Below, piece after piece: positions 5,814-23,535 of a stretch of DNA of 64,000 bases (the first letter of the stretch is position 1; each line of letters opens with the position of its first letter). The stretch covers positions 2,790,001 through 2,854,000 of the forward strand of contig NZ_CDGG01000001.1 in assembly GCF_000821065.1 (NCBI RefSeq). The letters are read 5' to 3'. Source of the DNA: Oceanobacillus oncorhynchi. GTDB lineage: Bacteria; Bacillota; Bacilli; Bacillales; Amphibacillaceae. The translations under genes and the position numbers were made by a program. The notes below the pieces were generated by a model, which saw only the letters and a program-made list of their open reading frames with translations, did no database searches and was not told where the DNA came from.

Positions 5814-6170
5814 GTTTTACCTCCTCTCAATGGTAATCTGATTAATGATTGTTAAATGTTTAATCATCTATATATCCAAGAATTTACTGATTCGTTACAA
5901 TATTTTTTTCCAACTCTATTATTTTCTGCTATTTACCTTCTTCTGTAAACAATGAGCAGCAGGTCTAAATAGAGGGAACACAGCTGTATCGGGAGAATAA
6001 TAGGTCTCTAAATGATAAACAAACGAATCAAAAACAGTCTCATCGTTCATAGAACATATTAAAAGAAAAGTGGAAAATATATATTAATCCTATAAATTCT
6101 TGAAATTCATTTGTATAATGACCATAGATATCAGTTAACAGCAATGAAACAGATAAATGGAGGGACAGCT
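5814..6170. other. Intergenic region between sigma factor and response regulator
   Basis: About 357 bases with no credible gene. It should carry the divergent promoters of the sigma/anti-sigma operon (left) and the two-component operon (right; TATAAT at about 6114). No terminator or strong repeat seen. Confidence 0.5.
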
Positions 6171-6872
6171 ATGAAATTACTCATTGTAGAAGACGATAAA
6201 ACAATTGCTTCCGGCTTGGAGTATTCCCTAAGCCAAGAAGGCTATGAAGTAATCGTCTGTCATCATGCGCAAGGAGCAGAGGAAAGGATAGACACAGAGA
6301 TAGACAGCATTTCTCTATGCTTATTTGATTTATCTTTGCCTGATGGCAGCGGCTATGATTTATGCCGGCGTGTCAAAGAAAGTGCAGATGTCCCGGTTAT
6401 ATTTCTAACCGTTGCCGATGATGAAGTGAACGTGGTAATGGGACTGGATATAGGGGCAGATGATTATATTACCAAGCCATTTCGTATACGTGAATTAAGT
6501 GCACGGATTAAAACCGTGCTCAGGCGTTATCAAAAAAATAACACGCAGGAGAAGGATTCTGTCCACCTTGATTCGCTGGAGGTATTTCCGTTAGAAGGAA
6601 AAGTATATAAAGCAAATATAGAACTTGCATTAACCGCACTGGAATATAGGCTGTTGATGATTTTTATCAACCACCGCGGGCAGATATTGTCTCGGGAACA
6701 GCTGCTGGAACAGATATGGGATGTGGCTGGCGAGTTTGTCAACGATAATACGCTTACGGTGTATATTAAACGGCTTCGAAAGAAAATTGAAGATAATCCG
6801 CAGCAGCCGGCAATCATAGAAACAGTCAGAGGGCTGGGATACAGAATGGCGGCAGAAGATGTTACGAAATAA
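6171..6872 (+). CDS. OmpR-family response regulator
   Basis: A 233-residue two-component regulator. The receiver domain (1-115) has the acidic pair at 8-9, the phospho-acceptor Asp53 in LFDLSLPDGSG, and the TKPF lysine. A winged-helix DNA-binding domain follows (about 135-228), ending in ETVRGLGYRM. The ATG at 6171 is chosen over an upstream in-frame ATG because GGAGGGA sits directly before it. Its 3' end overlaps the histidine kinase by 14 bases and the ABC transporter genes follow, so it likely activates that transporter. The palindrome at 7905 is a candidate target site. Confidence 0.95.
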   Translation: MKLLIVEDDKTIASGLEYSLSQEGYEVIVCHHAQGAEERIDTEIDSISLCLFDLSLPDGSGYDLCRRVKESADVPVIFLTVADDEVNVVMGLDIGADDYITKPFRIRELSARIKTVLRRYQKNNTQEKDSVHLDSLEVFPLEGKVYKANIELALTALEYRLLMIFINHRGQILSREQLLEQIWDVAGEFVNDNTLTVYIKRLRKKIEDNPQQPAIIETVRGLGYRMAAEDVTK

Positions 6873-7866
6873 AGAAATCTGTTTTTTTCTCACTTCCACG
6901 GTATTGATTTTAGGAATCGGCATGCTATTAGGATATATGCATTCTCCTGTCACAGCTGTCTATATTGTGATTGTGGGCGGGAGCCTGGCGAGTTGCTATA
7001 TGGTATGGATGGCCTGGCGCTATCAGCGGATTATCCAGTTATCCGGTTATTTACGAAAAATTATGGCAGGAGATACCGCGCTCGATGTCCGGGATAATAG
7101 AGAAGGGGACCTCAGTATATTAAAAAATGAAATCTATAAAATGACCCGGATGCTATCTGAACAGCAGGAAGGGCTGCAGAAGGATAAAGAAAAACTCACG
7201 GATGCAATCTCCGATATTTCTCATCAAATCAAAACGCCGCTGACTTCGATGACCGTAATGGCTGATTTATTAAGCAATCCGAATATCGAGACGGAAAAGC
7301 GGCATGAATTTACATATCATATTCGCAGGCAATTAGAACGGATGGAATGGCTTGTATCCTCGTTATTAAAGCTTTCCAAAATCGATGCGGGAACTACTTT
7401 ATTCAGCAAGGAAAAGGTTGAAGTGGACCAGCTTATACAAGAAGTTGTTGCACCAATGGAGATTCCTGTGGAGCTGAAGGAGATAGAGCTGGAGATAGAA
7501 GAAAAGCCGGGGGTGACTTTTATAGGCGATAAAAATTGGACGAAAGAGGCTTGTATTAATATTTTAAAGAATGCAATAGAACACACCCCGCATGGCGGAA
7601 AAGTCTCCATCTCTTATGAGGAAAATGCTATTTTTACAGAAATACGAATTAATGATAATGGCAAAGGTATCGAGAAAGCAGAGCTTCCACATATTTTTAA
7701 ACGTTTTTATAAAGGAAGTCAGGCGGCTGATGGCAGTGTTGGTATTGGTTTGGCGATGGCTTATTCGATTGTTGCTAATCAGCAGGGAGATATTGAAGTA
7801 ATAAGTGAATCTGGAAAAGGAACCACTTTTTTAATTAAATTCTATCAGGGAGAAGCAGCTCGCTAA
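6859..7866 (+). CDS. Sensor histidine kinase, short extracellular loop
   Basis: A 335-residue kinase. Two transmembrane helices (about 8-26 and 31-52) are joined by only a few residues, so it cannot bind a ligand outside through a large domain; this is the intramembrane-sensing layout that usually relies on a partner transporter. A HAMP-like linker follows, then HisKA with His122 in DISHQIKTPLTSM, then the HATPase domain with the N box ILKNAIEHTP, G1 DNGKGI and G2 GSVGIGLAMAYSI. It overlaps the regulator gene and lies upstream of the ATPase and permease genes, forming one module. Confidence 0.94.
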   Translation: MLRNKEICFFLTSTVLILGIGMLLGYMHSPVTAVYIVIVGGSLASCYMVWMAWRYQRIIQLSGYLRKIMAGDTALDVRDNREGDLSILKNEIYKMTRMLSEQQEGLQKDKEKLTDAISDISHQIKTPLTSMTVMADLLSNPNIETEKRHEFTYHIRRQLERMEWLVSSLLKLSKIDAGTTLFSKEKVEVDQLIQEVVAPMEIPVELKEIELEIEEKPGVTFIGDKNWTKEACINILKNAIEHTPHGGKVSISYEENAIFTEIRINDNGKGIEKAELPHIFKRFYKGSQAADGSVGIGLAMAYSIVANQQGDIEVISESGKGTTFLIKFYQGEAAR

Positions 7867-7904
7867 ATGAAGTTTCACTTTATCAGCAGGTTATGTCATC
7901 ATAA

Positions 7905-7943
7905 GTGACAATATTGTCACTGTTATTGTCACCATCCCGTCAC
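7905..7943. promoter_or_regulatory. Candidate response-regulator operator of the ABC transporter genes
   Basis: A perfect 16-bp palindrome GTGACAATATTGTCAC (7905-7920) is followed by two more TCAC direct copies at 12- and 11-base spacing (TTGTCAC at 7926-7932 and CGTCAC at 7938-7943), about one helical turn apart. It lies in the gap between the kinase and the ATPase gene. This is the layout expected for cooperative binding of an OmpR-type dimer that boosts transporter expression. Confidence 0.6.
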
Positions 7944-7991
7944 CTTAGACAGGTAAAGTTGGGAATAAAGGAAAATAAGGAGGAAATTGTA

Positions 7992-8675
7992 GTGGAATTA
8001 ATGCGGGTTGAAAATTTGTCTAAAGTGTACGGAAAAGGTGACACGGCAGTAAAAGCATTGGATAATGTATCATTTTCCGTGGAGCAGGGGGAGTTTGTAG
8101 CAATTATTGGACCGTCTGGTTCCGGGAAATCGACACTGCTTCATTTGCTGGGTGGTGTGGACCGGCCGACGGATGGCAAGGTATTTATAGAGAATACAGA
8201 TATCTATGAATTAAATGAAACACAGTTAGCTGTTTTTCGCAGGAGACAGATTGGCTTAATTTATCAGTTTTACAATCTCCTGCCAATTTTAACTGTTGAG
8301 GAAAATATTACGTTGCCAATGCTGTTAGATTCTCATCAGGTGGAAAAAAAGCACTTTAAGGAATTGATAGAGATTCTTGGGCTTAAAGACCGATTAGATT
8401 ATTTACCGAATCAGCTATCTGGGGGCCAGCAGCAGCGTGTATCCATTGGCAGAGCTCTAATCAGTAATCCGTCTATTATTCTTGCGGATGAGCCGACGGG
8501 GAATTTAGACAGTAAGAATAGTAAAGAAATCATTGATTTATTAAAACTATTTAATAAATCATATCACCAGACATTGGTCGTCATTACCCATGATGAACGA
8601 ATTGCCCTTCAGGCTGATCGGATTATTTCCATTGAGGATGGTGTGATCGCCAAGGACGAGGTGATTCGCCAATGA
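7992..8675 (+). CDS. ABC transporter ATP-binding protein (MacB/LolD type)
   Basis: A 227-residue ATPase with Walker [11 protein letters not shown]-loop, signature [15 protein letters not shown], Walker [13 protein letters not shown] and the switch His in VITHD. The subfamily is the one that pairs with FtsX/MacB permeases for peptide or lipid-linked substrates. The GTG at 7992 is chosen because AAGGAGG lies eight bases upstream; ATG 8001 is a possible alternative. It overlaps the permease gene by four bases. Complete and probably functional. Confidence 0.94.
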
Positions 8676-11266
8676 ATATTGTCAATAAAGTTACGTTAAG
8701 GCATTTAAAAGAAAATAAACGAAGAACGCTTATTACTATCATTGGTGTCATTATTTCTGTTGCGATGATTACAGGAGTAGCTTCCCTGGGAATTTCTTTT
8801 ATAGATATGCAGCAGCGGGATGCGATTGCTAATGAGGGGAATTGGCATTACAGCATGGATCAGCTTGATTCAGAGCAGCTGGAAAAAATTCAAACCGATG
8901 CCAATACTGATTCTGTCGGTGTGATGAAGGAATATGGGTATGCACCGTTGAATGACCAATTATTGAAAAGATACCTGTATGTCCGGGGCATGGATGAAGC
9001 GGCTCTGGAGCAGATGCAAGTGAATCTGACGAAAGGCCGGCTCCCGGCAAGTGAAAAGGAGGTAGTGATCTCTGAGGAATTAAAGAGACAGGATTTTGAT
9101 TACCAAATTGGAGATACGATTGAGTTAGACATAGGAGAAAGACGTTATACAGGAACGGAAGGTATGGAAAATCGTGCGTTAGACCAAAATGATTCTCTTT
9201 TGGTTATTGAAGGACAATTAGATGAAGAATTACGTGAGCAAACCGAATACAGCTTTACCATTGTTGGTGAAATCGAAGAACCGATATGGGACGAGCCGTG
9301 GTCTCCAGGATATACCGTGTTAGCTTATACGGATGCACAAGCGTCATCTGTGGTGGACCGTGCTTTTGTAAAAGTGAATGATTTAGGGATAACCCTTTTC
9401 GATGATGTAGATTTGCTGGCGCAAGAATTGGATGTAGCGTCCGATGCGTATAATTTTAACACGACTTTATTGAATACGTACCTTGTTTCCTTGAACAGTG
9501 GGACGGTTTCTACTTTGTCCGGATTATTAACGGTTATTATGCTGATTATCGTGATTGGTTCAATGGCTTTAATTTATAATGCATTTGCTATCTCTGTATC
9601 AGAAAGATCACGGTATTTAGGGATGCTTTCCAGTACTGGTGCAACGAAACGGCAAAAGAGAAATTCCGTATTATTTGAAGGGCTCTTAATCGGATTGATC
9701 AGTATCCCTATTGGAATTGGAGCTGGTTTTGCCGGCATTGGCATCACGTTGCATTATGTGAATCAGATTTTACAAAATGTAGGGCTTGAGACAGATTTCC
9801 GGTTGGCTGTTACTCTTCCTTTAATCGGGATAGCTGTCGGTGTTTCTTTGATGACCATTTTGATTTCTGCATGGATACCTGCAGTCAGAGCATCTAAAGT
9901 AACTGCAATAGATGCTATCCGTCAGGCGAAGGATGTCAAATTAACGAAAAAGAAAGTGAAAACAAACCGTATCGTCCGTAAACTCTTTGGCTATGAAGCG
10001 GAAATTGCTTTGAAGAATTTAAAGAGACATAAGAAACGTTACCAGGTGACTGTTTTTTCACTCATGATCAGCGTTATTCTGTTCTTAACTGTAGGGTTCT
10101 ATACCAATTCGCTGACAAAATCATATGAAGTACTGTCGGAGGAACTGGAATATGATATTTCCATTAGCGGCACGGGAGAAATAGATGATTCCAATCCTTT
10201 GTGGGAAATCTATCAAGACATACAAGATTTAGATAGTGTGGAGGAAAGTTTCATTTACAAAACAGCCCAGCTTCAGGCGTATTTTCCAGAGCAAATGGCT
10301 GGAGAGAACTATGAAAATAGGGATGGAACTCCTGAAACAGCAGAAGGTCTCCCGTATTACCTGGAATTAGTGGGCTTATCTGATGCGGATTGGGAACAAT
10401 ATCTAGCCGATAATGATATAACAGATAGGACAGAAAGTGATTTTCGCGGTGTTTTAGTAAACCATGTCACCTATAATGATGGCACGCAATACATCGAAAC
10501 AGATATGTTAAAAGTGGATACGGGTGATATGCTGCCGCTTCAAGTGAACAGCTACAATGAAGAAAGAGACGATTGGAACTTCGAACAGGGAGAAGACATC
10601 GAGCTGCTTGGTCTGACGAATCAATATCCCGTTGGAAATTCCTATGCCGATTCGAACACTATTTATCTTATTGTACCGGAGCAAGTGCTTGAGAATACAA
10701 TGGAATCATTTCCAAATGAAAGAACAAGTTTATCCGAGATATATGTCACCTCTGATGATCCGGACCAGGCGCAAGAGGATATAGAAGCGCTGGGGATTGC
10801 GGATGAGGTATCTATTTACAATCAGTATGAAGTCAGGCAGGATAATGAACAATTCGCACGGGTGCTGTCTATTTTTGTTTACGGGTTTATCATCCTGATT
10901 ACATTGATTTCCGTTGCTAATATCTTTAATACCATTTCAACAAGTATTGCTCTGCGGAGAAGAGAATTTGCAACGATGAAATCGATCGGCATGACGCCAA
11001 AAGCTTTTCGTAAAATGATTTATTTTGAGAGCCTGTTTTATGGAATAAAATCCTTGCTGTATGGGCTGCCAATCAGTTTCGTGGTAATGTATATTATTTA
11101 CTGGCAGACGCAATACGCCTTTGATTACAGCTTCAACATTCCATGGATGTATATTGGAATAGCGATTCTAGCTGTATTCCTGATTGTTGGAGCAGCCATG
11201 CTATACTCGATGTCGAAATTGAAGAAGGATAGTATTGTGGAGACGTTAAGACAGGAAAATATTTAG
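8672..11266 (+). CDS. FtsX-family ABC permease, 864 residues
   Basis: A large permease with two FtsX cores. The N-terminal helix (about 20-40) is followed by an extracellular domain of about 230 residues and three helices around 277-410. Then comes a second helix near 460, a second acidic extracellular domain of about 260 residues, and three C-terminal helices from about 730 to 850. The size is as expected for duplicated-domain permeases in the SalY-like family. With the ATPase and two-component system it forms a probable antimicrobial peptide sensing or resistance module. Substrate unknown. Overlaps the ATPase by four bases; followed by a strong terminator. Confidence 0.93.
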   Translation: MNIVNKVTLRHLKENKRRTLITIIGVIISVAMITGVASLGISFIDMQQRDAIANEGNWHYSMDQLDSEQLEKIQTDANTDSVGVMKEYGYAPLNDQLLKRYLYVRGMDEAALEQMQVNLTKGRLPASEKEVVISEELKRQDFDYQIGDTIELDIGERRYTGTEGMENRALDQNDSLLVIEGQLDEELREQTEYSFTIVGEIEEPIWDEPWSPGYTVLAYTDAQASSVVDRAFVKVNDLGITLFDDVDLLAQELDVASDAYNFNTTLLNTYLVSLNSGTVSTLSGLLTVIMLIIVIGSMALIYNAFAISVSERSRYLGMLSSTGATKRQKRNSVLFEGLLIGLISIPIGIGAGFAGIGITLHYVNQILQNVGLETDFRLAVTLPLIGIAVGVSLMTILISAWIPAVRASKVTAIDAIRQAKDVKLTKKKVKTNRIVRKLFGYEAEIALKNLKRHKKRYQVTVFSLMISVILFLTVGFYTNSLTKSYEVLSEELEYDISISGTGEIDDSNPLWEIYQDIQDLDSVEESFIYKTAQLQAYFPEQMAGENYENRDGTPETAEGLPYYLELVGLSDADWEQYLADNDITDRTESDFRGVLVNHVTYNDGTQYIETDMLKVDTGDMLPLQVNSYNEERDDWNFEQGEDIELLGLTNQYPVGNSYADSNTIYLIVPEQVLENTMESFPNERTSLSEIYVTSDDPDQAQEDIEALGIADEVSIYNQYEVRQDNEQFARVLSIFVYGFIILITLISVANIFNTISTSIALRRREFATMKSIGMTPKAFRKMIYFESLFYGIKSLLYGLPISFVVMYIIYWQTQYAFDYSFNIPWMYIGIAILAVFLIVGAAMLYSMSKLKKDSIVETLRQENI

Positions 11267-11397: not shown

Positions 11398-11445
11398 ATG
11401 TTTCGAATAGGAGAAGCAGCGAAACAAACAACGCTATCCGTTTAA
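11398..11445 (+). pseudogene. Fossil N-terminus of a MerR-family regulator
   Basis: A 15-codon reading frame, [15 protein letters not shown] then stop, matches the first helix of MerR-type DNA-binding domains (typical start MYRIGELAKxTGVSV). The stop codon coincides with the 3' end of fosB on the other strand, and nothing MerR-like continues beyond it. It looks like a MerR gene cut by the recombination that brought fosB beside it. No ribosome site is obvious, so it is not expected to make a protein. Confidence 0.6.
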
Positions 11446-11864
11446 ATATAAAACTCCATATGAGGCTTTTCCTGCTTATAATAATTCATTCTGTCCTGTA
11501 ACGTGCCAGTATGAAATTCAAACTTATGACCATCAGGGTCTGTAAAATAGATCGATTTCTTATCTTTTTCATCCCTGGGACGGCCCGTTAACATATTTAC
11601 GTCTAATTCCTCTAATTTGTTATATATGCTGTCAAAATCAGCTTCTTCAATGGAAAAAGCAATATGTGTATAGGATTGGCTTATTTCATTCCGGGGTATG
11701 TCCTTCTCCAAATTAAGAGCCAGCCACATGCCATTTAAATCAAAATAAGCTGTGCTTCTTCCCTTGACCAGTAATTTAGCATCAAACACATTCTGGTAAA
11801 AACGTATGGACTTTTCCAAATCAGAAACAGAAAATAAAAAATGATTTACTCCCTTTATAAACAA
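11442..11864 (-). CDS. fosB: Fosfomycin thiol transferase FosB
   Basis: A 140-residue vicinal-oxygen-chelate (glyoxalase-fold) enzyme very close to B. subtilis FosB as I remember it. It shows [19 protein letters not shown], the [23 protein letters not shown] block, the second metal His in [10 protein letters not shown], and the [23 protein letters not shown] block carrying the metal Glu. It adds bacillithiol (or cysteine) to fosfomycin using a divalent metal. The TTG start at 11864 is chosen because GAGGTGA lies just upstream and the protein then has the normal FosB length; upstream in-frame codons do not fit the family. Likely co-transcribed with the small lipoprotein gene upstream. Confidence 0.95.
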
Positions 11865-11898
11865 CTTTATCACCTCAATATGATTAGTTTCATTTTTT

Positions 11899-12120
11899 CT
11901 AAGAACAACAATAAATAGCTGCATCAAAAGCATCTTCCGGAATATAGATGATTTCATTTCTTATTTCGTAAGGTATATCATGGTTTTCTAACAATTCCGT
12001 AGCATTGCTGTTTGTCTTTTCTCCCCACTCGGTGTATTCGCCGGTATATTCTTTTTGACAAGCGGATAAGGCTGCCAAAAGAAAAAAAGCACAAAGTATA
12101 AATACTAGAACCTTCTTCAA
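11899..12120 (-). CDS. Small putative lipoprotein
   Basis: A 73-residue protein with a lipoprotein signal ([21 protein letters not shown], acylated Cys at 21) and a short mature part of about 50 residues ending in IYCCS. The start is TTG behind GGAGAG. It lies 34 bases upstream of fosB on the same strand and is probably in the same transcript. No domain recognised; the vicinal Cys pair at the C-terminus is notable. Function unknown. Confidence 0.75.
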
Positions 12121-12344: not shown

Positions 12345-12373
12345 TTGTTTTTCTTCTGTATTAAGAATATAAT
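12345..12373 (+). promoter_or_regulatory. Predicted sigma-A promoter of the permease/PASTA operon
   Basis: TTGTTT (12345-12350), a 17-base spacer and a perfect TATAAT (12368-12373). It would give a leader of about 160 bases before the permease start. A TGTATTAATACA palindrome lies in that leader. Confidence 0.6.
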
Positions 12374-12540
12374 ACATTTAAATATGTGTCTTAGTGTATT
12401 AATACAGTATGACAAAAATACATCATTAGAACGAGGTGAGGGGTTATATTCAAGTAGTAGCTTGGATAGTTACTTTAGTATAATTGTAATATTTATACTT
12501 AAAAAGAATTTATTGTTAGAAGTTGTTGAGGGGGTTAGTT

Positions 12541-14010
12541 ATGAATTTTATGAAACGGGCTTTTTTAGGGATTACTAGAAAAAAAGGAAAGTCTTTAATT
12601 TTACTTGCAGTTATTTTTATTTTAGGAAATTTGATTTCTGGAGCTATTGCGATTCAGCAGGCAACCGGCAATGTAGAGACCACCATTAAAGAGAGACTGG
12701 GTACTGCAGCAACGGTTGACATGGATTATAAAGCATGGGAGTCCATGTCTGAGGAAGAACTGGAAACCTTGGAGATGGAAGAGCTGGGCGTTGATCTGAT
12801 TAAGCAGATTGGCGAGCTTCCTTATGTGAAATACTATGATTACAGCATGACCACCTGGATGGGGTCAGAGAGTATAGAACCTTATCAAGAAGAACTGGAA
12901 GAGGATGTTATGTATGGGGATGAAGATAATATCCCTTTTAGCCTGAAAGGGATCAATTACGCTCCAGTTATTGATTTTGAAGAAGGAAAAGGGGAGTTAG
13001 CAGACGGACGGGTGTTTACAGAGGAAGAGATTAAGAATGGCACGTCCGTGGCAATCATTTCTCAAAAACTGGCAGAGCAAAATAATTTAGAGGTAGGAGA
13101 TACATTTACATTATTAAGTGCTGTGTATGATTACTCGGAAGAGACGGGTGAAGAGACCGTATTGGATTCCAGAGATATTGTTTTAGAAGTGATTGGATTA
13201 TTCGATCCGCAATCTGGAAAGGAAGAGACAGAGAGTAAAGAGGAAGATAGCGATATGTTCCTGATGGAGGATATCGACTATCAGAATACCGTATATGTTC
13301 CTAATGCCATTATATCTGCCGAAGAACAGTATTACTGGGAGGTATATGCTGAAGACGATCCAGAAATTGCTGAAATGCTGGAAGAAGAGTCGATGGAATA
13401 CTATACGCCAATCTATTACTTAAATAATCCAGAGGACATAGAGCCATTTGAAGAAGAGGTGGCGCCGTTATTGCCGGAGCTTTATACGGTAATTAGCGCA
13501 AGTGACCAATATGATGATATTTCAGGACCGATGGAATCCATGTCCACGCTGTCAAAATATGTTTTATTAGTGGCTGTGATTGCGACCGTACTCATTACTG
13601 GATTAGTCGTTTTACTATTTTTGCGGGACCGCAAGCGTGAATTAGGGATTTACTTATCCTTAGGTGAGAAGCGGGGTAAGGTTGTCGGACAGATTTTAAT
13701 TGAAGTAATCGTCGTTGCCTTTGTTGGTATTACATTATCATTATTTACTGGAAATCTCTTAGCAGGGCAAGTATCAGATACGATGATGAAAGCAGATGAT
13801 ACGCAAGAAGAAAGCTATGAAGGTGTTATTTATTATGAAGGGATAGAAACCAATTTGACGGCAGAAGATGTGATAGATTCATATGAGGTCAGTCTTAATT
13901 CCAGCTATGTGCTCGGTTTTTATGGAATCGGTCTGTTAACGATTTTGATTTCAACGATTATCCCGCTGATTTATATTGTCCGGTTGAATCCAAAGAAAAT
14001 ACTGATGTGA
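12541..14010 (+). CDS. FtsX-family ABC permease beside a PASTA protein
   Basis: A 489-residue permease with one FtsX core: an N-terminal helix (about 14-36), a strongly acidic extracellular domain of about 300 residues, and three C-terminal helices (about 341-365, 388-415, 459-485). The ATG at 12541 follows GAGGGGG; a short overlapping frame upstream is not credible. A (frameshifted) ATPase gene follows after 15 bases and a membrane PASTA protein comes next. The shape is that of MacB/FtsX mechanotransmission permeases, and the PASTA partner suggests a role at the cell wall. Substrate unknown. Confidence 0.9.
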   Translation: MNFMKRAFLGITRKKGKSLILLAVIFILGNLISGAIAIQQATGNVETTIKERLGTAATVDMDYKAWESMSEEELETLEMEELGVDLIKQIGELPYVKYYDYSMTTWMGSESIEPYQEELEEDVMYGDEDNIPFSLKGINYAPVIDFEEGKGELADGRVFTEEEIKNGTSVAIISQKLAEQNNLEVGDTFTLLSAVYDYSEETGEETVLDSRDIVLEVIGLFDPQSGKEETESKEEDSDMFLMEDIDYQNTVYVPNAIISAEEQYYWEVYAEDDPEIAEMLEEESMEYYTPIYYLNNPEDIEPFEEEVAPLLPELYTVISASDQYDDISGPMESMSTLSKYVLLVAVIATVLITGLVVLLFLRDRKRELGIYLSLGEKRGKVVGQILIEVIVVAFVGITLSLFTGNLLAGQVSDTMMKADDTQEESYEGVIYYEGIETNLTAEDVIDSYEVSLNSSYVLGFYGIGLLTILISTIIPLIYIVRLNPKKILM

Positions 14011-14025
14011 TGGTGAGGTGAGAAG

Positions 14026-14693
14026 ATGATATTAGAAGCAAAGGATTTAAATTATTATTATCAGGACGGCGAACAGCGCCGTTATATTTTAAAGGATACA
14101 TCTATCTCTTTTGAGAAGGGGAAGTTTTATACGATTTTAGGGCAGTCCGGCTCAGGAAAGACAACCTTGTTATCCTTGCTCAGTGCGTTGGATTCACCGC
14201 ATAGCGGAGAAGTGTTATTTAACGAGGAGAATATTAAGAAAATTGGATATGAAAAATACCGCCGCAATAATGTAGGGATTATTTTTCAAAGCTATAATTT
14301 AATTCCGACTTTTACAGCTATTGAAAACGTACTGGTCCCGATGTCAATCACGGAAAATGAAATTCCGGATGATACCAAAACCGTAGCGTATAATTTGCTG
14401 GATTATATCGGGATTGTAAAAAATAAAGCAGACCGTCTGGTTAATCAGCTGTCCGGGGGAGAGCAGCAGCGTGTTGCCATTGCCCGTGCGCTGGCAACGA
14501 ACGTGGAATTAATTCTTGCCGATGAACCTACTGGAAATCTTGATGAAGAGATGGAGCAGGAAATCATTGATATCTTTAAAAAATTGATGAGCATGGGAAA
14601 TGTGTCATTGTGGTAACTCACTCCAATGAAATTGCCGAACAGTCTGATCAGGCTTTCCAATTAAGGAAGGGTGTTCTGTCTTCCTATGAGTGA
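14026..14693 (+). pseudogene. ABC transporter ATPase with a one-base frameshift
   Basis: The open frame runs to a stop at 14616 (196 residues) and contains Walker A GQSGSGKTT, signature [15 protein letters not shown] and Walker [13 protein letters not shown]. The rest of the domain, including the switch motif VIVVTHS, continues in the next frame until a stop at 14691-14693. A single missing base around 14595-14600 (GGGAAA) explains it. The restored stop overlaps the start of the PASTA gene by eight bases, which supports the ancestral frame. As written, the ATPase lacks its H-loop and should be inactive. It may be a real mutation, programmed slippage or an assembly error. Confidence 0.85.
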
Positions 14694-16239
14694 TTTTTTA
14701 TCCAAGTTTAATAAAGATAAATATGATGATCTGGTAAATGAAAAAGAAGACAAGGAAATAAAGAGCAGTGACAATAAGAAAGAACAGAAACAGGAAGAAA
14801 AAGTACCGCAGCAGAAGCACGAGGAACAGGCTTCTGCTGTGGAAAAGGAAGAGCCCGTATATAAAAAGCATGAGCCCGTCCCTGCTTCTTCCTCTCTTTC
14901 CTCCAGAAGCGGCCGCCGTCAAGATGCAGAAGAAGAAGTGGAAATTGACTTAGATTACCGGAGGAAGAAAAAACGCCGGATGTGGCTGCTTATTTCTGGA
15001 GCCGTTTTGGCTTGTATCCTGATTTTCTTCATTTATTATCTGCTTGTTCATGTGAAGGTAGAAAATTTTGAGGGTCAGCCTGTGGCAGATGTGCGGGCCT
15101 GGGCTGAGGAGAACGATGTGGAAATCGAATTAGAACAGGAATACAGCATGGAGCATGATGCGAACCATGTTATTTCACAAAGTGTTTCTGAAGGGGACAA
15201 GATTAAAAAAGGAAAAACGCTGCAATTAACCAGCAGTTTAGGTGCTGATCCAGAAGAAGTTATTCCGCTGGTTGATTTTTCAGAGATGTCCCAAGAAGAA
15301 GCACAAATCTGGATTGAAGAAAATAAAGCAGAAAACCTGCAGCTGGTCACAGAATATAGTGATGATATCGAAGCGGGGGGCTTTATTCAGTTTTCCATCA
15401 AGGATAGCAGTATTGATGAATCGGAATACAAACGGAAGGATAGTGCTGCTGTCTATTATTCAAGAGGGGAAGAAGTTTTCGAAAAGAATATTACTATCCC
15501 TGATTTTACCGGAGCTGCCAAAGAAGAAGTGGAAAAATGGGCAGAGACCAATGAAATTGAGATGACCTATGAAGAGGCTGATTCGGACAGCGTCGAAGAA
15601 GGAAATATTATCAGTCAAAGTGAACCGGCGGATGAGAAAATCGCGAAAAGAGACGAGATGGAAGTGGTTGTATCAGCCGGTAAAGCAGTGGTCGTTCCGA
15701 ATTTTGGAGGGGTAACTGCGGAAGAAGCAGCGATGAATTATCCAGATTTAAATGTCACCGTAAAACATGCTTTTCATGCAGACGTTGCCTATGGAACGCT
15801 GATTTCACAATCTGTTGAAGCAGATACAAAGCTGACAAATAAAGATGACAAGGATGTTACCGTAACGTACTCTCAGGGCAGACCATATTTGCATGATTTC
15901 CGAGGACAGACAGAAGGGGATTTGCCAAGACTGTTTTATGAGGAATATCAATCAAAGGGTGCGGACATCAACTATATTGTAAAGTATGTTGATTCCCCGG
16001 AAGTAAAGGGAACCGTCGTGGATATGGGGGTATTTAATGAATTTGTGCCCATGACGTATACGGTGGAGGTCCGAATTAGCAATAATGCTTCTGCACCGCC
16101 AAATCCGCCGGCATTTGATGAAGGACCGGAAGATATTTATCCGGAGCCCGGAGCAGGCGGAGCTGATGGACTGGAAGAACTTGAACCAGAGCTTGGTGCA
16201 GATGAGTCTCCGGATTCATTGGAGGAAACGGAAGAGTAA
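14686..16239 (+). CDS. Membrane-anchored protein with four PASTA-like domains
   Basis: A 517-residue protein. Residues 1-98 are cytoplasmic, very charged and low in complexity. A transmembrane helix lies at about 99-121, and four PASTA-like repeats follow at roughly 123-190, 195-265, 267-335 and 337-405 (HVISQSVSEGDKIKKG, NIISQSEPADEKIAKR and LISQSVEADTKLTNK are clear repeat cores). Then comes a divergent segment and an acidic, Pro-rich tail. PASTA domains bind peptidoglycan or muropeptides and beta-lactams in PrkC kinases and PBPs, but here there is no kinase or transpeptidase domain. ATG 14686 is chosen; GTG 14671 is an alternative closer to AAGGAAGG. Probably a wall-sensing partner of the ABC transporter. 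Confidence 0.85.
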   Translation: MSDFLSKFNKDKYDDLVNEKEDKEIKSSDNKKEQKQEEKVPQQKHEEQASAVEKEEPVYKKHEPVPASSSLSSRSGRRQDAEEEVEIDLDYRRKKKRRMWLLISGAVLACILIFFIYYLLVHVKVENFEGQPVADVRAWAEENDVEIELEQEYSMEHDANHVISQSVSEGDKIKKGKTLQLTSSLGADPEEVIPLVDFSEMSQEEAQIWIEENKAENLQLVTEYSDDIEAGGFIQFSIKDSSIDESEYKRKDSAAVYYSRGEEVFEKNITIPDFTGAAKEEVEKWAETNEIEMTYEEADSDSVEEGNIISQSEPADEKIAKRDEMEVVVSAGKAVVVPNFGGVTAEEAAMNYPDLNVTVKHAFHADVAYGTLISQSVEADTKLTNKDDKDVTVTYSQGRPYLHDFRGQTEGDLPRLFYEEYQSKGADINYIVKYVDSPEVKGTVVDMGVFNEFVPMTYTVEVRISNNASAPPNPPAFDEGPEDIYPEPGAGGADGLEELEPELGADESPDSLEETEE

Positions 16240-16897: not shown

Positions 16898-17596
16898 ATG
16901 CAAACCATTATGATTGTAGAAGATGACCCGAAGATTGCAAAGCATCTGCAGGATTATATTGAAAAATATGGTTATCGGGTGTCTTTTATCATGGATTTTG
17001 AACGGATCATGGAAGTATTTCAAGAGGAAAAGCCTGACTTAGTGCTTCTGGATATTAATTTACCAAGCTATGATGGTTTTTATTGGTGCAGGCAAATTCG
17101 CCAGCTGTCTACCTGTCCGGTCATTTTTATTTCTGCCCGCACAGGAGAGATGGACCAGGTAATGGCGCTGGAAAACGGAGGCGATGATTTTATCACAAAA
17201 CCGTTCAGTGCGGAAATCGTGATGGCAAAAATACGCAGTCAGCTGCGCCGGGCATATGGAGCGTATGCTCAGGACGCAAAGGAGCGTTTCTTAGAGGTGG
17301 AAGGGTTAAAGCTTTCCCCGGAACGGCTGGAATTAACCTTCGCCGGAGAGGATACGTTTTTATCAAAAAAAGAAGCGGATATTATGGAAACCTTAATGAA
17401 TCGTTATCCGCGTGTTGCCGGCAGGGAAGATTTGCTGGAGAAGCTTTGGGACGACCAGACCTATGTGGATGAAAACACATTGAACGTCAATATAACAAGA
17501 GTGCGGAAAAAGCTGCAGTCTGTCGGGATTGCAGATGGAGTGGAGACGGTTAGAGGAGTCGGCTACCGCTTAAAAAGCCTGTTGAAAGAAGAATAA
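16898..17596 (+). CDS. BceR/YxdJ-type response regulator
   Basis: A 232-residue OmpR-family regulator with receiver residues D9-D10, Asp52 (LLDINLPSYDGFYWCRQIR is characteristic of the BceR group), the TKPF lysine and a C-terminal winged helix ending VETVRGVGYRLKSL. A G-rich ribosome site GGGGAGGGGGG precedes the ATG. It should be phosphorylated by the kinase at 18131 and bind the paired operators at 16804 and 20799. The neighbouring yxeA-like gene points to the Yxd branch of the Bce family. Confidence 0.93.
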   Translation: MQTIMIVEDDPKIAKHLQDYIEKYGYRVSFIMDFERIMEVFQEEKPDLVLLDINLPSYDGFYWCRQIRQLSTCPVIFISARTGEMDQVMALENGGDDFITKPFSAEIVMAKIRSQLRRAYGAYAQDAKERFLEVEGLKLSPERLELTFAGEDTFLSKKEADIMETLMNRYPRVAGREDLLEKLWDDQTYVDENTLNVNITRVRKKLQSVGIADGVETVRGVGYRLKSLLKEE

Positions 17597-17616
17597 TGTA
17601 AATGGGGAGGATTCCT

Positions 17617-18054
17617 ATGCAATTTAAATCCGTTGTGGAAGCAGATTTGATTTCATGCAGTAAATTATTTTTAACCGTTTTTAATGGGGAACCATGGAAT
17701 GATAAATGGACGTTAGAAAAAGCCAAACAGTATCTGGCAGATTTTTACCGGACTCCTGGATTTTTTGGTGTGTCAGCGATAGAAAATGAAGAGATTATTG
17801 GATTTATTTTTGGGACACGCCGGGCTTGGTGGAATGGCGATGAGTTTTTTATCAATGAAATGTGTGTAGATACGGACAGACAAAATAAAGGAATAGGGAA
17901 GGAGCTCCTTACTCATTTGGAGAAAGTGATAGATTCAAATGAAATTACTGCTATTTCTCTTTTGACGGACCGGGGAATACCGGCAGAAGCATTTTATAAA
18001 AGAAATGGCTTTAAAGAAATAGAAAGGCTTGTTTTTCTCAGTCGTGAAGTTTGA
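17617..18054 (+). CDS. GNAT-family N-acetyltransferase
   Basis: A 145-residue acetyltransferase. Motif A is visible as MCVDTDRQNKGIGKELLTHLE (acetyl-CoA pyrophosphate loop Q-x-x-G-x-G), followed by a conserved strand and the GIPAEAFYKRNGFKE end. The upstream in-frame ATG at 17602 is rejected because the ribosome site GGGGAGG lies between it and the ATG at 17617. It sits between the BceR-type regulator and its kinase, in the same direction, 20 bases after the regulator, so it may be co-transcribed. Acceptor unknown; a resistance role is only suggested by location. Confidence 0.9.
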   Translation: MQFKSVVEADLISCSKLFLTVFNGEPWNDKWTLEKAKQYLADFYRTPGFFGVSAIENEEIIGFIFGTRRAWWNGDEFFINEMCVDTDRQNKGIGKELLTHLEKVIDSNEITAISLLTDRGIPAEAFYKRNGFKEIERLVFLSREV

Positions 18055-18072
18055 AGCAGATGTTTACCATGC

Positions 18073-18110
18073 GTGTTCAAAAAGTCATTTTCATTGGGCA
18101 TTTTGAACAT
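18073..18110. repeat. Palindromic short repeat, copy 1
   Basis: GTGTTCAAAA and TTTTGAACA flank an 18-base loop just before the kinase gene. A related element starting GTGTTCAAAAGTC and containing TTTGAACA is found at 31545-31588 in the purine operon leader. Probably a small dispersed element. Confidence 0.55.
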
Positions 18111-18130
18111 CCTCTTAAAGGAGGTTGAAA

Positions 18131-19123
18131 ATGAAGTTATTTTTAAAGGAACATGCTTTATTGATTTTACTTAATATCGTGCAGTTTACGGCTATCCTGC
18201 TTATTTACTGGCTGGATGGCTACCGGAATTTACTGCCGGCATTGTACGCGATTTTTATTGGATTCTTTTTTCTTGTCTGCTATCTTTTTTATCAGTATTT
18301 CAGCCGCCGGACATTTTATCACCGTTTAAGCCATCCGATGGAAACCTTAGATGAATCCTTGCAGAAAAGCAGTCCGCATCCTGTTTCCGAAGCAATGAAC
18401 GATTTGTTGAGAAGTCAGTATAAACAGTATCAGCAGCAGATCAATACCATTGAAAAGGAAAGGGAGGAGCATCTTAAGCTGATGGATCAGTGGGTGCATC
18501 AAATGAAAACACCTATCTCTGTCATTGAGCTTACCGCACAGAATCTGGATGAGCCAGACTCCTCCAGTATTCGAGAGGAAACGGAGCGGATGAAATCGGG
18601 ATTAAATACAATTCTTTATATGGCAAGGCTGCGGACAATTGAGCAGGATTTTCATATCAAGCCGATACATTTGAAATCATTGGTCCATGAGGTAAACGGT
18701 GAAAACAAACGATTCTACATACGCAATAAGGTTTATCCTAAAGTGGAAGAACGAACGGAAGGGTTGACAGTACAGTCAGATGAAAAGTGGCTTTACTTTA
18801 TCCTGACCCAGCTTGTTTTAAATGCTGTAAAGTACTCCGCAGACAAAAGCAATTCCATTCTTATCTCTATTTATGAAAGGGAGAAAGAAGCTGTGTTGGA
18901 AGTGAAGGATTTTGGTGTCGGGATTCCGGAAGCGGATAAGAGACGTATTTTTGATGCTTTTTATACTGGTGAGAACGGCAGGAAATTTAGAGAATCTACC
19001 GGAATGGGATTGTATTTAATCAAAGAATCCGTGGAGTATCTCCATCATCGGATTGAATTTGAGTCAAGGGTGGGAGAGGGCACCACGTTCCGGATTCTTT
19101 TTTCGGAAACGCAAAAGCGATGA
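18131..19123 (+). CDS. BceS/YxdK-type intramembrane-sensing histidine kinase
   Basis: A 330-residue kinase with two helices (about 8-27 and 36-55) joined by a very short loop, a linker and a HisKA site at His123 (MDQWVHQMKTPISVIELTAQ, the typical BceS sequence). The ATPase domain has LNAVKYS, DFGVGIPEADKRRIFDAFYTG and STGMGLYLI. The ATG at 18131 is preferred because AAAGGAGG lies six bases before it. BceS-like kinases do not sense peptides directly but respond to flux through the BceAB-type transporter, here encoded at 20901-23535 beyond the catalase gene. Confidence 0.94.
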   Translation: MKLFLKEHALLILLNIVQFTAILLIYWLDGYRNLLPALYAIFIGFFFLVCYLFYQYFSRRTFYHRLSHPMETLDESLQKSSPHPVSEAMNDLLRSQYKQYQQQINTIEKEREEHLKLMDQWVHQMKTPISVIELTAQNLDEPDSSSIREETERMKSGLNTILYMARLRTIEQDFHIKPIHLKSLVHEVNGENKRFYIRNKVYPKVEERTEGLTVQSDEKWLYFILTQLVLNAVKYSADKSNSILISIYEREKEAVLEVKDFGVGIPEADKRRIFDAFYTGENGRKFRESTGMGLYLIKESVEYLHHRIEFESRVGEGTTFRILFSETQKR

Positions 19124-19152
19124 ATATAAAGTAAAATAGTATATAAAAGAAA

Positions 19153-19190
19153 TGACATCTGCCGCAATGATGCTGCTGTGGCAGATGTCA
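19153..19190. terminator. Hairpin between convergent kinase and catalase genes
   Basis: TGACATCTGCC and GGCAGATGTCA form an 11-bp stem. The minus-strand flank is T-rich (TTTCTTTTATA), so it mainly serves the catalase transcript. Confidence 0.75.
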
Positions 19191-19199
19191 TGCTATGTG

Positions 19200-20609
19200 T
19201 TAGGATCGTAATCCATCCTCTACGCGTTCGCCAAGCTGAGGAGAAGCAAGCGAAAAATACTCTATTGCCTTTGCCTGCAAGTCTCGCCGTACTCCTGTCA
19301 GTCCAGTAACCAGATTCGAGACAAGCTGCGTTTTTCCTGTTTGCGATAAAGATTGATAGTATTCCCCTGCCTGGGTAAAATCATCCTGCTTTACAATATC
19401 CGAGCGTATGAGCTCGCCTTCCACATACCTGTCTTCTCCGCTCGTCTGTAAATTGCTTGGCTTCCAATGCTTCTGATCATTTACCGGCACATCTCGGAAC
19501 CGCGGTCCGATACGATAGCGCTGCGAATCCCAATATACATTCGCCCGCCCTTGTACGATTTTATCATCGGACAATTCTGCTCCGTCCAGCAAGTTTGACG
19601 GGGAGAACGCAAGCTTTTCCACCTGCTCCATATAATCGTCTGGATTGCGATTAAGCACCATCTTTCCGACAGGGTGAAAAGGAAACATCTTTGGATCCCA
19701 TACTTTCGTATCATCAAGCGGATCGAACGGAAGCTGCCCCGCATCTTTAGGATTCATCATTTGTACATACAGTCCGTATTCTACTAAGCTCCCGTCTGCA
19801 ATCGTGTTGTAGAGATCTTCTCCGGAATAATCCGGATTGGCCGCTGCAATTTTATCTGCCTCGCTGCTTGTAATGAATTGTACACCCTCAAATGGAATCC
19901 ACTGGTATTTAATATAATGCCGTTTTCCTTCTGCGTTTCGCCACACGTACGTACTGACGCTGTTAGCGGGGATTCGCCGAAAACTTTTAGCTGTGCCCTG
20001 GTTAGAAAAGAGACGGACGATAAAATGGGTGGACTCCGGGTGCCTGGCGACAAATTCCCAAAGCGAATTCGGATCCATCAGGTTGTTCTTAGGTGATGGG
20101 GAAAGAGCTTTGATACTTTCTGGGAAACGCATCGGATCACGCAATAAAAAGACGGGGATATCATTACAAATAAGGTCAAAAATCCCGTCGTCTGTATAGA
20201 ACTTCGTTGAAAATCCACGTATGTTTCGCGAGGTATCCGGGGTGCCTTTATTGCTCGCTCCAAGTGAAAAACGAACCGCGACAGGAACGGTTTGGCCAGC
20301 ATGCTGAAGAAAAGGAAGCTTTGTGTATTTACTCATGCTGTTCAGTGTTTCGAAATACCCAAATGCACCATACCCTTTCACATGTAAAGGACGTTCGATA
20401 ATCTTCTCGTGAATGAAGGTTTCCAGTGTTTCATGCAAAATGTTATCCTGTTCCAATATCGGACCATCTTTACCAACCGTTTGGGAGTGCATCGGGCCGG
20501 AAGTGTTGGATGAGTTATGTTGGCGTGTCGCGTGCTTGTTATCTGCTGCTTCTGTTTTTGGAACAGGATGACGTTTTCCTTGTTGCGGATTATGATTGTT
20601 ATCGCTCAT
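19200..20609 (-). CDS. Haem catalase
   Basis: A 469-residue monofunctional catalase. The catalytic His lies in ERPLHVKGYGAFGYF, and the distal Asn region reads CNDIPVFLLRD instead of the usual GNNTPVFF. The substrate-channel and core blocks VRFSLGASNKG, RNIRGFSTKFYTDDG and KMVLNRNPDDY are present, and the proximal haem ligand Tyr with its Arg lies in GRANVYWDSQRYRIGP. The N-terminal 60 residues are hydrophilic and His/Gln-rich. It converts hydrogen peroxide to water and oxygen. It is inserted in reverse between the kinase and transporter genes of the Bce-type module. Start ATG follows GGAGGAACTA. No clear PerR box was seen upstream. Confidence 0.92.
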   Translation of the reverse strand: MSDNNHNPQQGKRHPVPKTEAADNKHATRQHNSSNTSGPMHSQTVGKDGPILEQDNILHETLETFIHEKIIERPLHVKGYGAFGYFETLNSMSKYTKLPFLQHAGQTVPVAVRFSLGASNKGTPDTSRNIRGFSTKFYTDDGIFDLICNDIPVFLLRDPMRFPESIKALSPSPKNNLMDPNSLWEFVARHPESTHFIVRLFSNQGTAKSFRRIPANSVSTYVWRNAEGKRHYIKYQWIPFEGVQFITSSEADKIAAANPDYSGEDLYNTIADGSLVEYGLYVQMMNPKDAGQLPFDPLDDTKVWDPKMFPFHPVGKMVLNRNPDDYMEQVEKLAFSPSNLLDGAELSDDKIVQGRANVYWDSQRYRIGPRFRDVPVNDQKHWKPSNLQTSGEDRYVEGELIRSDIVKQDDFTQAGEYYQSLSQTGKTQLVSNLVTGLTGVRRDLQAKAIEYFSLASPQLGERVEDGLRS

Positions 20610-20798
20610 TAGTTCCTCCTTGTGAAAATATAATCTACCTTAATAATGTTATGAATATTGCTTGTTTCAATATGCATTATTAGTAAAAAATAATCAGAAG
20701 ATTGGGAAATCAAAAGGTAAAAAATAGATTTTGGTAATTGAAAAGACGAATTAAGATGATGCACGGAGGAAAATCTCTTTAAAACAATAGATACTTAT

Positions 20799-20864
20799 CT
20801 TACAATGCTGTAAGGTAATTGAAAGAAATTTCGATAGTTTCTTCCTTAAGAGCAGCGATATACT
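20799..20864 (+). promoter_or_regulatory. BceR/YxdJ-type operator and promoter, site 2
   Basis: CTTACA-ATGC-TGTAAG (20799-20814) followed 44 bases later by TATACT (20859-20864) in front of the transporter genes. The half-sites match site 1 exactly and the spacing to the -10 box is the same, which supports a shared regulator. Confidence 0.78.
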
Positions 20865-20900
20865 ATGGTTAAATGAAATGATAAGGAAGGAAGGATTTAT

Positions 20901-21665
20901 ATGTTGAAAGTAAGACAAGTCAGTAAAGTTTATGAAGGCAAAGTCTCCTACCGTGCTTTGTCAGATATTGATTTGACCGTAGAGGATAATGAATTTGTAG
21001 GAATTATGGGGCCGTCTGGAAGCGGTAAGACAACGTTGTTAAATATGATTGCTACGATTGACGAACCGACGACAGGGGAAATCTTAATTAACGGGAAGGA
21101 CCCGCATCGTCTCAAAAAAGAAAAGCTTGCTCAATTCCGCAGACGGGAATTAGGGTTTGTCTTTCAGGATTTTAACCTGCTCCACACACTGACCGTGGAA
21201 GAGAATATGGTGCTGCCGTTAACTCTTGATGGCAAAAAGGTAAGTGAAATGAAGAAAAAGGCAAAGGAAATTGCTGCGAAGCTGGGGATAACGGAAATCA
21301 TGAATAAACGAACCTATGAAATTTCCGGCGGGCAGGCGCAGAGGGCAGCTGTTGCCCGGGCAATGATTCATACGCCAAAGCTGCTCTTGGCAGATGAACC
21401 GACGGGAAACCTGGATTCCAAGTCCTCTAAAGATGTGATGGAATTGCTGGAATCCATTAATGAAAAGGAAAAGACAACAATGCTTTTGGTTACGCATGAT
21501 CCGCAGGCTGCGAGTTATTGTAATCGTGTGGTATTTATCCGGGACGGAAAGTTTTATTCCGAAATTCACCGCGGCGATAACCGGCAGGCGTTTTTCCAAA
21601 AGATTATCGACACACTCTCATTAATGGGAGGGGATTCCAATGACTTTTCGTCAGTTCGCGTTTAA
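20901..21665 (+). CDS. BceA/YxdL-type peptide ABC transporter ATPase
   Basis: A 254-residue ATPase with Walker A GPSGSGKTT, Q-loop FQDFNLLHTLTVEENM (a hallmark of BceA-type proteins), signature ISGGQAQRAAVARAM, Walker [13 protein letters not shown] and switch His in LVTHD. It powers the permease encoded by the next gene, with which it overlaps by 26 bases. The family removes cell-wall-active peptides such as bacitracin-like compounds from their lipid targets. Ribosome site AAGGAAGGA precedes the ATG. Confidence 0.94.
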   Translation: MLKVRQVSKVYEGKVSYRALSDIDLTVEDNEFVGIMGPSGSGKTTLLNMIATIDEPTTGEILINGKDPHRLKKEKLAQFRRRELGFVFQDFNLLHTLTVEENMVLPLTLDGKKVSEMKKKAKEIAAKLGITEIMNKRTYEISGGQAQRAAVARAMIHTPKLLLADEPTGNLDSKSSKDVMELLESINEKEKTTMLLVTHDPQAASYCNRVVFIRDGKFYSEIHRGDNRQAFFQKIIDTLSLMGGDSNDFSSVRV

Positions 21666-23535
21666 TAATGTCGTCCGGAATAAACGGCTTTATGCTGCGT
21701 ATTTTCTAACCAGCCTTTTTACCGTGATGGTTTTCTTTACCTTTTCTATTTTTGCTTCTCATCCGCAGCTGACAGGAAATAATATGGATTCCTATGTCAG
21801 CTTTGGAATGAATGTTGCCGCAGGGATTATCTATGTATTTTCTTTTTTCTTTGTGCTTTACTCGATGAGTTCTTTCCTGCAATCAAGGAAAAGAGAATTC
21901 GGCTTATTGATGATTCAAGGAATGAGCATGAAACAAATCCGCTCGATGGTTTTCCTGGAAAATATGTTTATCGGTTTGCTGGCTACGATTGGCGGTATTG
22001 GATTAGGACTGGTTTTTTCTAAAGGTATCTTATTGATTGCTGAAAATGTACTCATTATTGATAATGAACTGCCATTTTATTTTCCAACACAGCCTATTTT
22101 GATTACCTTTGGCTGCTTTATGGTGCTATTTTTCCTGATTTCTTTATTTGTATCATATATTTTACGAAGCCGGAAATTGATTGATTTAATCAAGGGCGAT
22201 AAAAAGTCAAAAGGGGAGCCGAAAGCAAACTTATTTTTAACCATTCTGGCAGTGCTTTTGCTCGGAACAGGATATGTGGTTGCTGTAACAGTCGATGGAT
22301 TAAAGGTGATTGCCGCACTGGTTCCAGTTGTTATTGTCGTGATTATTGGCACCTATCTTCTGTTCACCCAATTAAGTGTATTTATCATCCGGCGGTTAAA
22401 AAAGAAAGAGAATGTATTCTGGTATAAAACAAATATGATTCTTTTATCCGATCTATCGTTTAGGATGAAGGACAATGCAAGATCATTTTTCTTAGTAGCG
22501 ATTATTTCAACCGTCGCTTTTAGTGCGATTGGATCGCTGTATGGGTTTCAATCGTATATCACTGCAGGAATCAAGCAGATGAACCAAACTACGATTTCTT
22601 ATCAGGACTATGATACAGGAAATGAGGAAGCGAATGTTTCGTATATTGATGAAACGCTGCGGGAAGCAAATGTTGACGTGGATAAAGAGCAGGTAACGCT
22701 CCATTATTATGAGCTGCCTGATGAATCGCAGGTTATGGTTACAAAGGAGTCAGATTATAACCGAATTGCGGAATTAAGTGATAATGAAACGGTTCAGATA
22801 GAAGACGGTGCTCCGGCTTTGATGGGACCTGAAGTTATTTTTCTTAATATCGGCGGGGATAATTCGAATAAAGAGGAAGCGGAAATATTAAAGGATGCGG
22901 AGCTGGAGCTGGGAAACACTGTTTTAGAGCCAGTACAGCTGGTAGAATCTAGTATACTGCCTGCTACCCAAAAATATTATGTTGTTTCCGATCATGATTT
23001 CGAGAGCCTGCCTGAGCCTGCTATGGAGGAAAACTACTATGCTTGGCAGGAGACAGAGGATAAAGAAATTCCTTTAGGCGTAGCAGAAAAATTAGATGAT
23101 GCGTTATCTACAGAGGGAATCCGGATTGGTGAGTATGAAGAATATGTTATCAATAAAATGTATGGACCCATCCTGTTCGTCGGCTTATTTATCGGAATCG
23201 TCTTTTTCGTATCGGCTGGAAGCTTTCTCTATTTCCGACTCTACTCTGATTTAGATGAAGATAAAAAGAAATTCCAGGCAATCACGAAAATGGGATTAAC
23301 CGAGAAGGAATTGAAAAAAGTATTGAACAGACAAACCGCGCTTCTTTTCTTTGCGCCGATTGCTGTTGCGCTGGTTCATGGAGCTGTCGCATTAACGGCG
23401 CTTTCCAATATGTTCTTCTACAGTCTGGTAAAGGAATCGGCAATGGTACTCGGAATGTTTTTAGCTATTCAAATCGTGTATTTCTTTATTGTTCGTTTCT
23501 ACTATATCCGGCAGGTGAAGCAGGCCTTGCGATAA
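21640..23535 (+). CDS. BceB/YxdM-type peptide ABC permease
   Basis: A 631-residue permease with the BceB layout. The N-terminal helices include a FtsX core (about 60-160) and further helices near 200-300, followed by a roughly 200-residue extracellular domain between helices VII and VIII (about 303-505, acidic). Three C-terminal helices end in IVRFYYIRQVKQALR. The extracellular domain defines peptide specificity and signals to the BceS-type kinase. GGGAGGGGAT precedes the ATG, which lies inside the ATPase gene. Followed by a bidirectional terminator. Confidence 0.93.
   Translation: MTFRQFAFNNVVRNKRLYAAYFLTSLFTVMVFFTFSIFASHPQLTGNNMDSYVSFGMNVAAGIIYVFSFFFVLYSMSSFLQSRKREFGLLMIQGMSMKQIRSMVFLENMFIGLLATIGGIGLGLVFSKGILLIAENVLIIDNELPFYFPTQPILITFGCFMVLFFLISLFVSYILRSRKLIDLIKGDKKSKGEPKANLFLTILAVLLLGTGYVVAVTVDGLKVIAALVPVVIVVIIGTYLLFTQLSVFIIRRLKKKENVFWYKTNMILLSDLSFRMKDNARSFFLVAIISTVAFSAIGSLYGFQSYITAGIKQMNQTTISYQDYDTGNEEANVSYIDETLREANVDVDKEQVTLHYYELPDESQVMVTKESDYNRIAELSDNETVQIEDGAPALMGPEVIFLNIGGDNSNKEEAEILKDAELELGNTVLEPVQLVESSILPATQKYYVVSDHDFESLPEPAMEENYYAWQETEDKEIPLGVAEKLDDALSTEGIRIGEYEEYVINKMYGPILFVGLFIGIVFFVSAGSFLYFRLYSDLDEDKKKFQAITKMGLTEKELKKVLNRQTALLFFAPIAVALVHGAVALTALSNMFFYSLVKESAMVLGMFLAIQIVYFFIVRFYYIRQVKQALR

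Follow-up and report, generated by a model that had tools for sequence, protein, structure and literature searches.

A three-gene locus among the type VII transporters

PASTA domains are chiefly known from kinases and penicillin-binding proteins. Transport systems such as MacB and Spr0694-0695 have a third subunit with one helix, and in the YclHI type a two-component system adjoins the permease and the ATPase. Here we describe a locus of Oceanobacillus oncorhynchi, called the trio below, in which the genes for an FtsX-type permease, an ATP-binding cassette (ABC) ATPase and a membrane protein with PASTA domains follow one another. It lies in a window of 64,000 nucleotides (contig NZ_CDGG01000001.1, 2790001-2854000) within a 4.6 Mb single-contig genome. 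We propose that the three proteins make up a self-contained ABC system of type VII (mechanotransmission), in which a PASTA stalk would couple the state of the wall to the motor, and we give this reading a probability of roughly 0.6.

Among the described systems, the PASTA-less relatives of the permease and ATPase, which we take to be of the YclHI type, have an MNF-KR-type N-terminus and a size in common with the trio, but six of the seven inspected adjoin a response regulator and, by eye, a histidine kinase and none has a PASTA gene. The tripartite systems MacAB, Spr0693-0695 and YknXYZ differ from the trio in their third subunit, which here is a PASTA protein. For Bacillus subtilis YtrEF, encoded by ytrGABCDEF, no PASTA protein is reported, and the trio operon stands apart from the repressor gene. 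FtsEX differs as well, since the trio has a permease-first order, scores far under the cut-offs of the FtsX models and shows no hydrolase partner. In both sequence and structure, the stalk was best matched by the PASTA kinases PrkC, Stk1 and PknB; the trio protein, however, has no kinase domain, and a short motif and a variable linker stand in its place. According to the available part of one source, several type VII transporters are without a known function, namely YclHI of B. subtilis, YtrEF and YvrON (PMC11466899). A putative ABC machine that carries a PASTA antenna towards the wall, and that recurs in many Gram-positive bacteria, appears to be a combination not described before, as no description of a PASTA-ABC system was found in the open-access literature (titles and abstract openings, with subscription literature outside the scope).

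Conservation and co-occurrence of the trio

A named collection of 84,980 species was scanned with two patterns of the PASTA protein, MSDFLS[KR]F or E[VLI]KGTVV[DGS]M, and 63 loci were obtained. The order permease-ATPase-PASTA was found in 60 of them; two others (L121 and L124) are truncated where their contigs end, and the last, L125 from O. piezotolerans, is a remnant. The hosts include Oceanobacillus, Gracilibacillus, Amphibacillus, Evansella, Sutcliffiella, Streptococcus, Enterococcus, Vagococcus, Granulicatella and Isobaculum, together with bins of Tissierellia, Clostridia and Erysipelotrichaceae. Oceanobacillus profundus and Sutcliffiella halmapala are examples of non-pathogenic species whose trio is intact. 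The ATPase and PASTA genes overlap by 8 bases, and the overlap sequence ATGAGTGA was exact in 60/60 loci, a check that covered the 8 bases at the ATPase end and not the open PASTA frame. When the open reading frames (ORFs) of the 60 loci were clustered, only the three trio families were general, the next family being response regulators (10/60). No conserved fourth gene was found by this clustering, and among the conserved neighbours there was neither a substrate or biosynthesis gene nor a hydrolase, although a hydrolase may be encoded elsewhere.

Co-occurrence was followed in further genome sets, with score limits set at gaps in the score lists after these had been seen. Among 147 relatives, the PASTA-protein search gave 24 clear orthologues of at least 485 bits, the window included; below them came one fragment with an internal stop (74.5 bits) and kinase-like matches of 58 bits at most. 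The permease profile scored at least 725 bits in the same 24 genomes and matched five others, the best at 170 bits. At the level of the class (398 genomes), the PASTA protein was present in 10, and those same 10 had a permease of at least 465 bits, while 17 further permease matches all stayed at or under 175 bits; the order was again permease-ATPase-PASTA in 8/8 further loci. At the level of the phylum (398 genomes), 7 had a PASTA match, the window included. Four of the six others were inspected, with G796 and G879 left out: three (G150, G616 and G839) were in order and G581 was in order but broken. In Streptococcus, a match was seen in 6/147 genomes.

Pairwise distances over 57 loci were correlated between permease and ATPase (r 0.91), permease and PASTA protein (0.94) and ATPase and PASTA protein (0.93), values obtained with no unrelated control gene. 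Strongly supported conflicting splits numbered 0, 3 and 0 for the same pairs. In the PASTA tree, where the window protein is nearest to those of Oceanobacillus sojae and O. neutriphilus, the branching mostly follows genera, so that an ancient system lost many times seems more likely than transfer between distant groups. The original prediction, made on the window alone, had taken the three genes as one unit and had suggested looking for them in other Firmicutes; both the conserved order and the co-occurrence, far outside the strain and in several Firmicutes groups, bear it out. Judged on these genomic comparisons, the conservation of the trio is far beyond chance, and that it is a conserved unit is close to certain.

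Parts of the trio and its promoter

The features of the locus, in window coordinates, are as follows.

12357..12376, no strand: palindromic operator TGTATTA-N6-TAATACA; the genome has two perfect copies, this one and one lying 5' of a GntR/YtrA-type repressor operon
12387..12406, no strand: second, imperfect operator copy, TGTCTTA-N6-TAATACA; a comparable second copy is present in the repressor promoter at a near-equal offset
12541..14010, + strand: permease of 489 amino acids with FtsX C-terminal and MacB_PCD domains and a type VII fold (Pfam, predicted model)
14026..14616, + strand: ABC ATPase ORF, frameshift-truncated in the window strain (frames and relatives)
14590..14605, + strand: out-of-frame deletion, approximate site as compared with relatives (frame comparison)
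14686..16239, + strand: PASTA protein of 517 amino acids with a DFLS.F motif, a variable charged linker, a membrane helix, PASTA-like modules and an acidic tail (Pfam, profiles, AlphaFold)

The anatomy that had been predicted, an FtsX-type permease, an ATPase and a PASTA protein with a charged cytoplasmic part and one helix, all on the + strand, was recovered. The genes had also been described as overlapping, but none overlap in the window, where 15 bases separate permease and ATPase and 69 bases separate the truncated ATPase ORF from the PASTA ATG; the 8-base overlap belongs to the relatives. Around the trio, a FosM/FosB-type thiol transferase gene lies 5' on the opposite strand (11442-11957, -; 281.6 bits against a cut-off of 255), and regulator-kinase-ABC modules are found on both sides (6111-11266 and 16898-23535), the first with a Bce-like permease of 864 amino acids and two FtsX stretches.

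The start of the permease is best placed at a conserved MNF (12541). Pfam FtsX and MacB_PCD were above cut-off, and four membrane helices, an ectodomain and the accompanying ABC ATPase place it in type VII, the MacB/FtsX fold (Pfam, model and fold matches). The predicted model matches the fold of MacB, LolCDE, BceB, YtrF and FtsX, and also that of Spr0694-0695. The main ectodomain has a net charge of -65 in the window strain, so the acidic ectodomain of the original prediction is real here. It is nevertheless lineage-specific, since the charge is only -13 to -29 in the rows of the Streptococcus group, Enterococcaceae, Tissierellia and Erysipelotrichaceae (28/59 rows counted), and acidity was dropped as a defining trait. 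The curated FtsX cut-offs were reached by 0/59 permeases: FtsX_actino matched weakly in 11/59 (best E 1.5e-5) and FtsX_Gpos in 2/59 (best E 0.00054), and the window permease scored 22.2 bits against an FtsX model cut-off of 250. The curated MacB and LolCE cut-offs were not reached either, with weak matches in 20 and 10 of the 59 (best E 7.8e-5 and 3.9e-7).

The ATPase gene is present as predicted, but the prediction had overlooked that it is broken, as it had the promoter palindrome. Comparison of the three frames (14,520-14,790) located the shift just 5' of the switch-histidine motif, so that the window ATPase is without this motif and the C-terminus. The ATPase is full length (223-229 amino acids) in 23/23 relatives, where the gene ends in the 8-base overlap with the PASTA gene, and its profile was covered through the end in 60/60 loci of the named collection. 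The difference is a short out-of-frame deletion and not a run-length change, which makes a sequencing slip the less likely source. No close spare copy was seen in the genome, since the next-best ATPase scored 175 bits against 409 for that of the trio. The motor of the window strain is therefore probably inactive, its ATPase being truncated. In one genome of the phylum search (L191), the ATPase and the entire trio are in pieces.

In the PASTA protein, one membrane helix (residues 89-121) is followed by five PASTA-like modules (123-468). Rather than the four repeats first proposed, three were above the Pfam cut-off, a fourth was found by profile comparison and a fifth PASTA-like module was present in the AlphaFold model. 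PASTA was detected by Pfam in all 59 members scanned and no other family was, which sets the protein apart from the PASTA Ser/Thr kinases. Seven of the first eight residues were invariant in 59/59 rows of the alignment A4, whereas residues 21-80 were variable, as expected of a docking motif. This alignment omits L088, in which the PASTA frame is not open from the overlap, and L094, L121, L124 and L125 of the 63 loci. The invariance of DFLS.F in it is partly selection, because MSDFLS[KR]F served as a search pattern. The MSDFLS start was, however, present in the 8/8 class-search loci found by profile and not by motif, and in L192; profile-found variants were MSSFL in L190 and MNDFLS or MSNDFLS in three Streptococcus-genus genomes. 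In the available text of a Streptococcus suis phosphoproteome, a non-kinase "PASTA domain-containing protein" is listed with reduced sites T25 and S30 (PMC8707513). T25 together with S30 was found in 0/6 trio-bearing Streptococcus-genus genomes, L232 (start placed by eye) having S25 and T30, and the sequences do not support identity of this phosphoprotein with the trio protein.

The operator, with one mismatch at most, was found in 15/60 trio upstream regions against a shuffle mean of 0.4 (maximum 3), with a 6-base spacer in 12 of the 15. All these regions belong to Oceanobacillus and its near relatives, and within the genus such a site was present in 8 of 11 genomes with a trio. In the genome that holds the window, exactly two perfect sites exist, one at the trio promoter and the other at an operon encoding a GntR-family regulator, an ABC ATPase and, by eye, a predicted membrane protein. 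The relaxed form TRTATTA-N6-TAATACA was present in 26/28 genus genomes, and in 26/26 one site precedes a homologue of the regulator (52-92% identical in 25 genomes, plus the query itself). The remaining sites comprised the trio promoters of six genomes, and five isolated TATATTA variants that are at chance level, given 17 occurrences of the reversed control pattern across the 28 genomes. With the exact TGTATTA form, the only sites in these genomes were at the regulator and, in three, at the trio. The regulator has the GntR Pfam domain; its best NCBIfam matches were of the MocR type, then PmtR, all far under cut-off. On this pattern of sites, the trio would share its operator with a GntR/YtrA-type regulon in Oceanobacillus. 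The operator differs from that of B. subtilis ytr, AGTGTA-N13-TACACT in the accessible source. As far as the available texts go, lipid II-cycle inhibitors induce the ytr operon, which encodes the FtsX-like YtrF among others, and the wall becomes thicker when the operon is over-expressed (PMC12772383, PMC8060467).

Other published motifs, those of envelope-stress regulators among them, were scanned for in the 60 upstream regions by their consensus sequences. LiaR/CesR, SigW, SigM/X, SigD, LexA, PhoP and BceR motifs gave 0 hits each. WalR was found at 2 loci (0.2 hits expected), Spo0A at 2 and SigB at 1. The YycF half site was present at 41 loci, yet its hits were fewer than in shuffled sequences (73 vs 84).

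Proposed working of the trio and its alternatives

That the parts of the trio work together is likely. In the physical complex that we infer, the motor would consist of two MacB-fold permeases and two ATPases, and the PASTA protein would be a third subunit dedicated to it. Through its N-terminal DFLS.F motif this protein would dock on the cytoplasmic face of the motor, and its five-module stalk would extend into the wall alongside the permease ectodomain. By binding peptidoglycan or a precursor, the stalk would couple the wall state to ATP-driven movement of the ectodomain; going by the domain family, the array may read muropeptide or lipid II. The output would most likely be the adjustment of an envelope process when the wall is under stress, and not the pumping of a drug. 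An envelope role is on balance favoured, supported by the operator shared with the GntR/YtrA-type repressor operon and weakly by the neighbourhood. A more specific version is tentative, at somewhat less than even odds: it would be a kinase-free form of PASTA signalling, in which the wall-bound stalk gates the type VII motor via DFLS.F docking, the wall state controls mechanical work instead of phosphorylation, and a GntR/YtrA-type envelope-stress repressor acts in some lineages. If the proposal holds, a PASTA subunit tied to an ABC motor would be another way of using wall sensing and would offer a testable trigger for type VII transporters; the presence of intact trios in culturable Bacillaceae opens it to direct tests.

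The sister clade hints at where the input comes from. Six weaker permease matches (L167-L171 and L193) are permease-ATPase pairs with the two-component genes adjoining, by eye, and no PASTA gene beside them; the seventh member, L100, lies near the trio in S. henryi and has no two-component neighbours. When 37 permeases were placed in a tree, the trio rows (25) and the labelled kin (6) each formed one side of a branch; six rows fell in no group, and several long branches make inner placement unsure. A two-component system beside 6/7 PASTA-less loci hints that the PASTA protein supplies the input to the ABC system. In the 60 trio loci, the response-regulator family was present in 10 and the kinase family in 7, which separates them from the YclHI type.

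Several points weigh against the proposed coupling of wall and motor. PASTA domains may be spacers that bind no ligand, L100 breaks the sister-clade pattern in one of seven loci, and the three strongly supported permease splits clash with the PASTA tree. The operator link may be local, because it is confined to Oceanobacillus and close kin. PmtR, a peptide-exporter regulator, is a weak match of the regulator (46.5 vs 200 bits), placed below the MocR-type matches. A ytrF deletion in B. subtilis is described, in the available part of PMC12772383, as without a clear phenotype.

An exporter is the alternative that survives best, and we consider it unlikely. The PASTA protein would be an adaptor replacing a MacA/YknX-type fusion protein and guiding an exported peptide or lipid through the wall, which would suit the fold common to MacB and Spr0694-0695 and also a GntR/YtrA-type operator, this class including regulators of exporters such as the weakly matching PmtR. 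However, the conserved neighbours in the 60 loci offer no substrate or biosynthesis gene, and we know of no PASTA protein acting as an export adaptor. Control of wall hydrolases as by FtsEX, the function first predicted, is less probable again: the PASTA protein or the ectodomain would activate an autolysin encoded elsewhere. The type VII fold is common with FtsX, and FtsX-like activators of hydrolases are established, in the accessible text of PMC11466899, but no member met an FtsX family cut-off (0/59), and no partner was identified among the conserved neighbours. A BceAB-like protection, in which a peptide antibiotic is lifted off its lipid target with the stalk as detector, is improbable. 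The fold match to BceB, the Bce-like modules and FosM-type gene in the window, and the link of the operator type to lipid II-cycle inhibitors in B. subtilis are in keeping with it, but these genes are not among the conserved neighbours of the 60 loci, and the available part of PMC12772383 did not confirm a consistent role of the ytr operon in resistance. Finally, that the PASTA protein merely shares the operon and acts elsewhere is hardly credible given the fixed order (60/63), the identical overlap (60/60) and the co-occurrence in two genome sets.

Variant loci were also seen. In L188 (6916-8418), a lone second trio-type permease has no ATPase or PASTA match within the stretch examined, and L189 (5598-9276) holds apparently decayed trio-like permease and ATPase fragments without a PASTA match. 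Only the end of the PASTA gene is left in Oceanobacillus piezotolerans (L062/L125), with no permease or ATPase match in the stretch examined. On the Enterococcus raffinosus plasmid pCX012922 (L229), a split PASTA gene lies close to copies of IS110, and neither a permease nor an ATPase is annotated next to it; the query has matches in five plasmid records of this species, one of them over 90% of its length. L190 (4800-10702) has a divergent trio followed by a second permease and, by eye, a secreted lipoprotein-like protein without a Pfam match. In L110 (1536-7584) and L114 (1913-7602), tandem permeases, possibly a heterodimer, lie 5' of the ATPase and PASTA genes.

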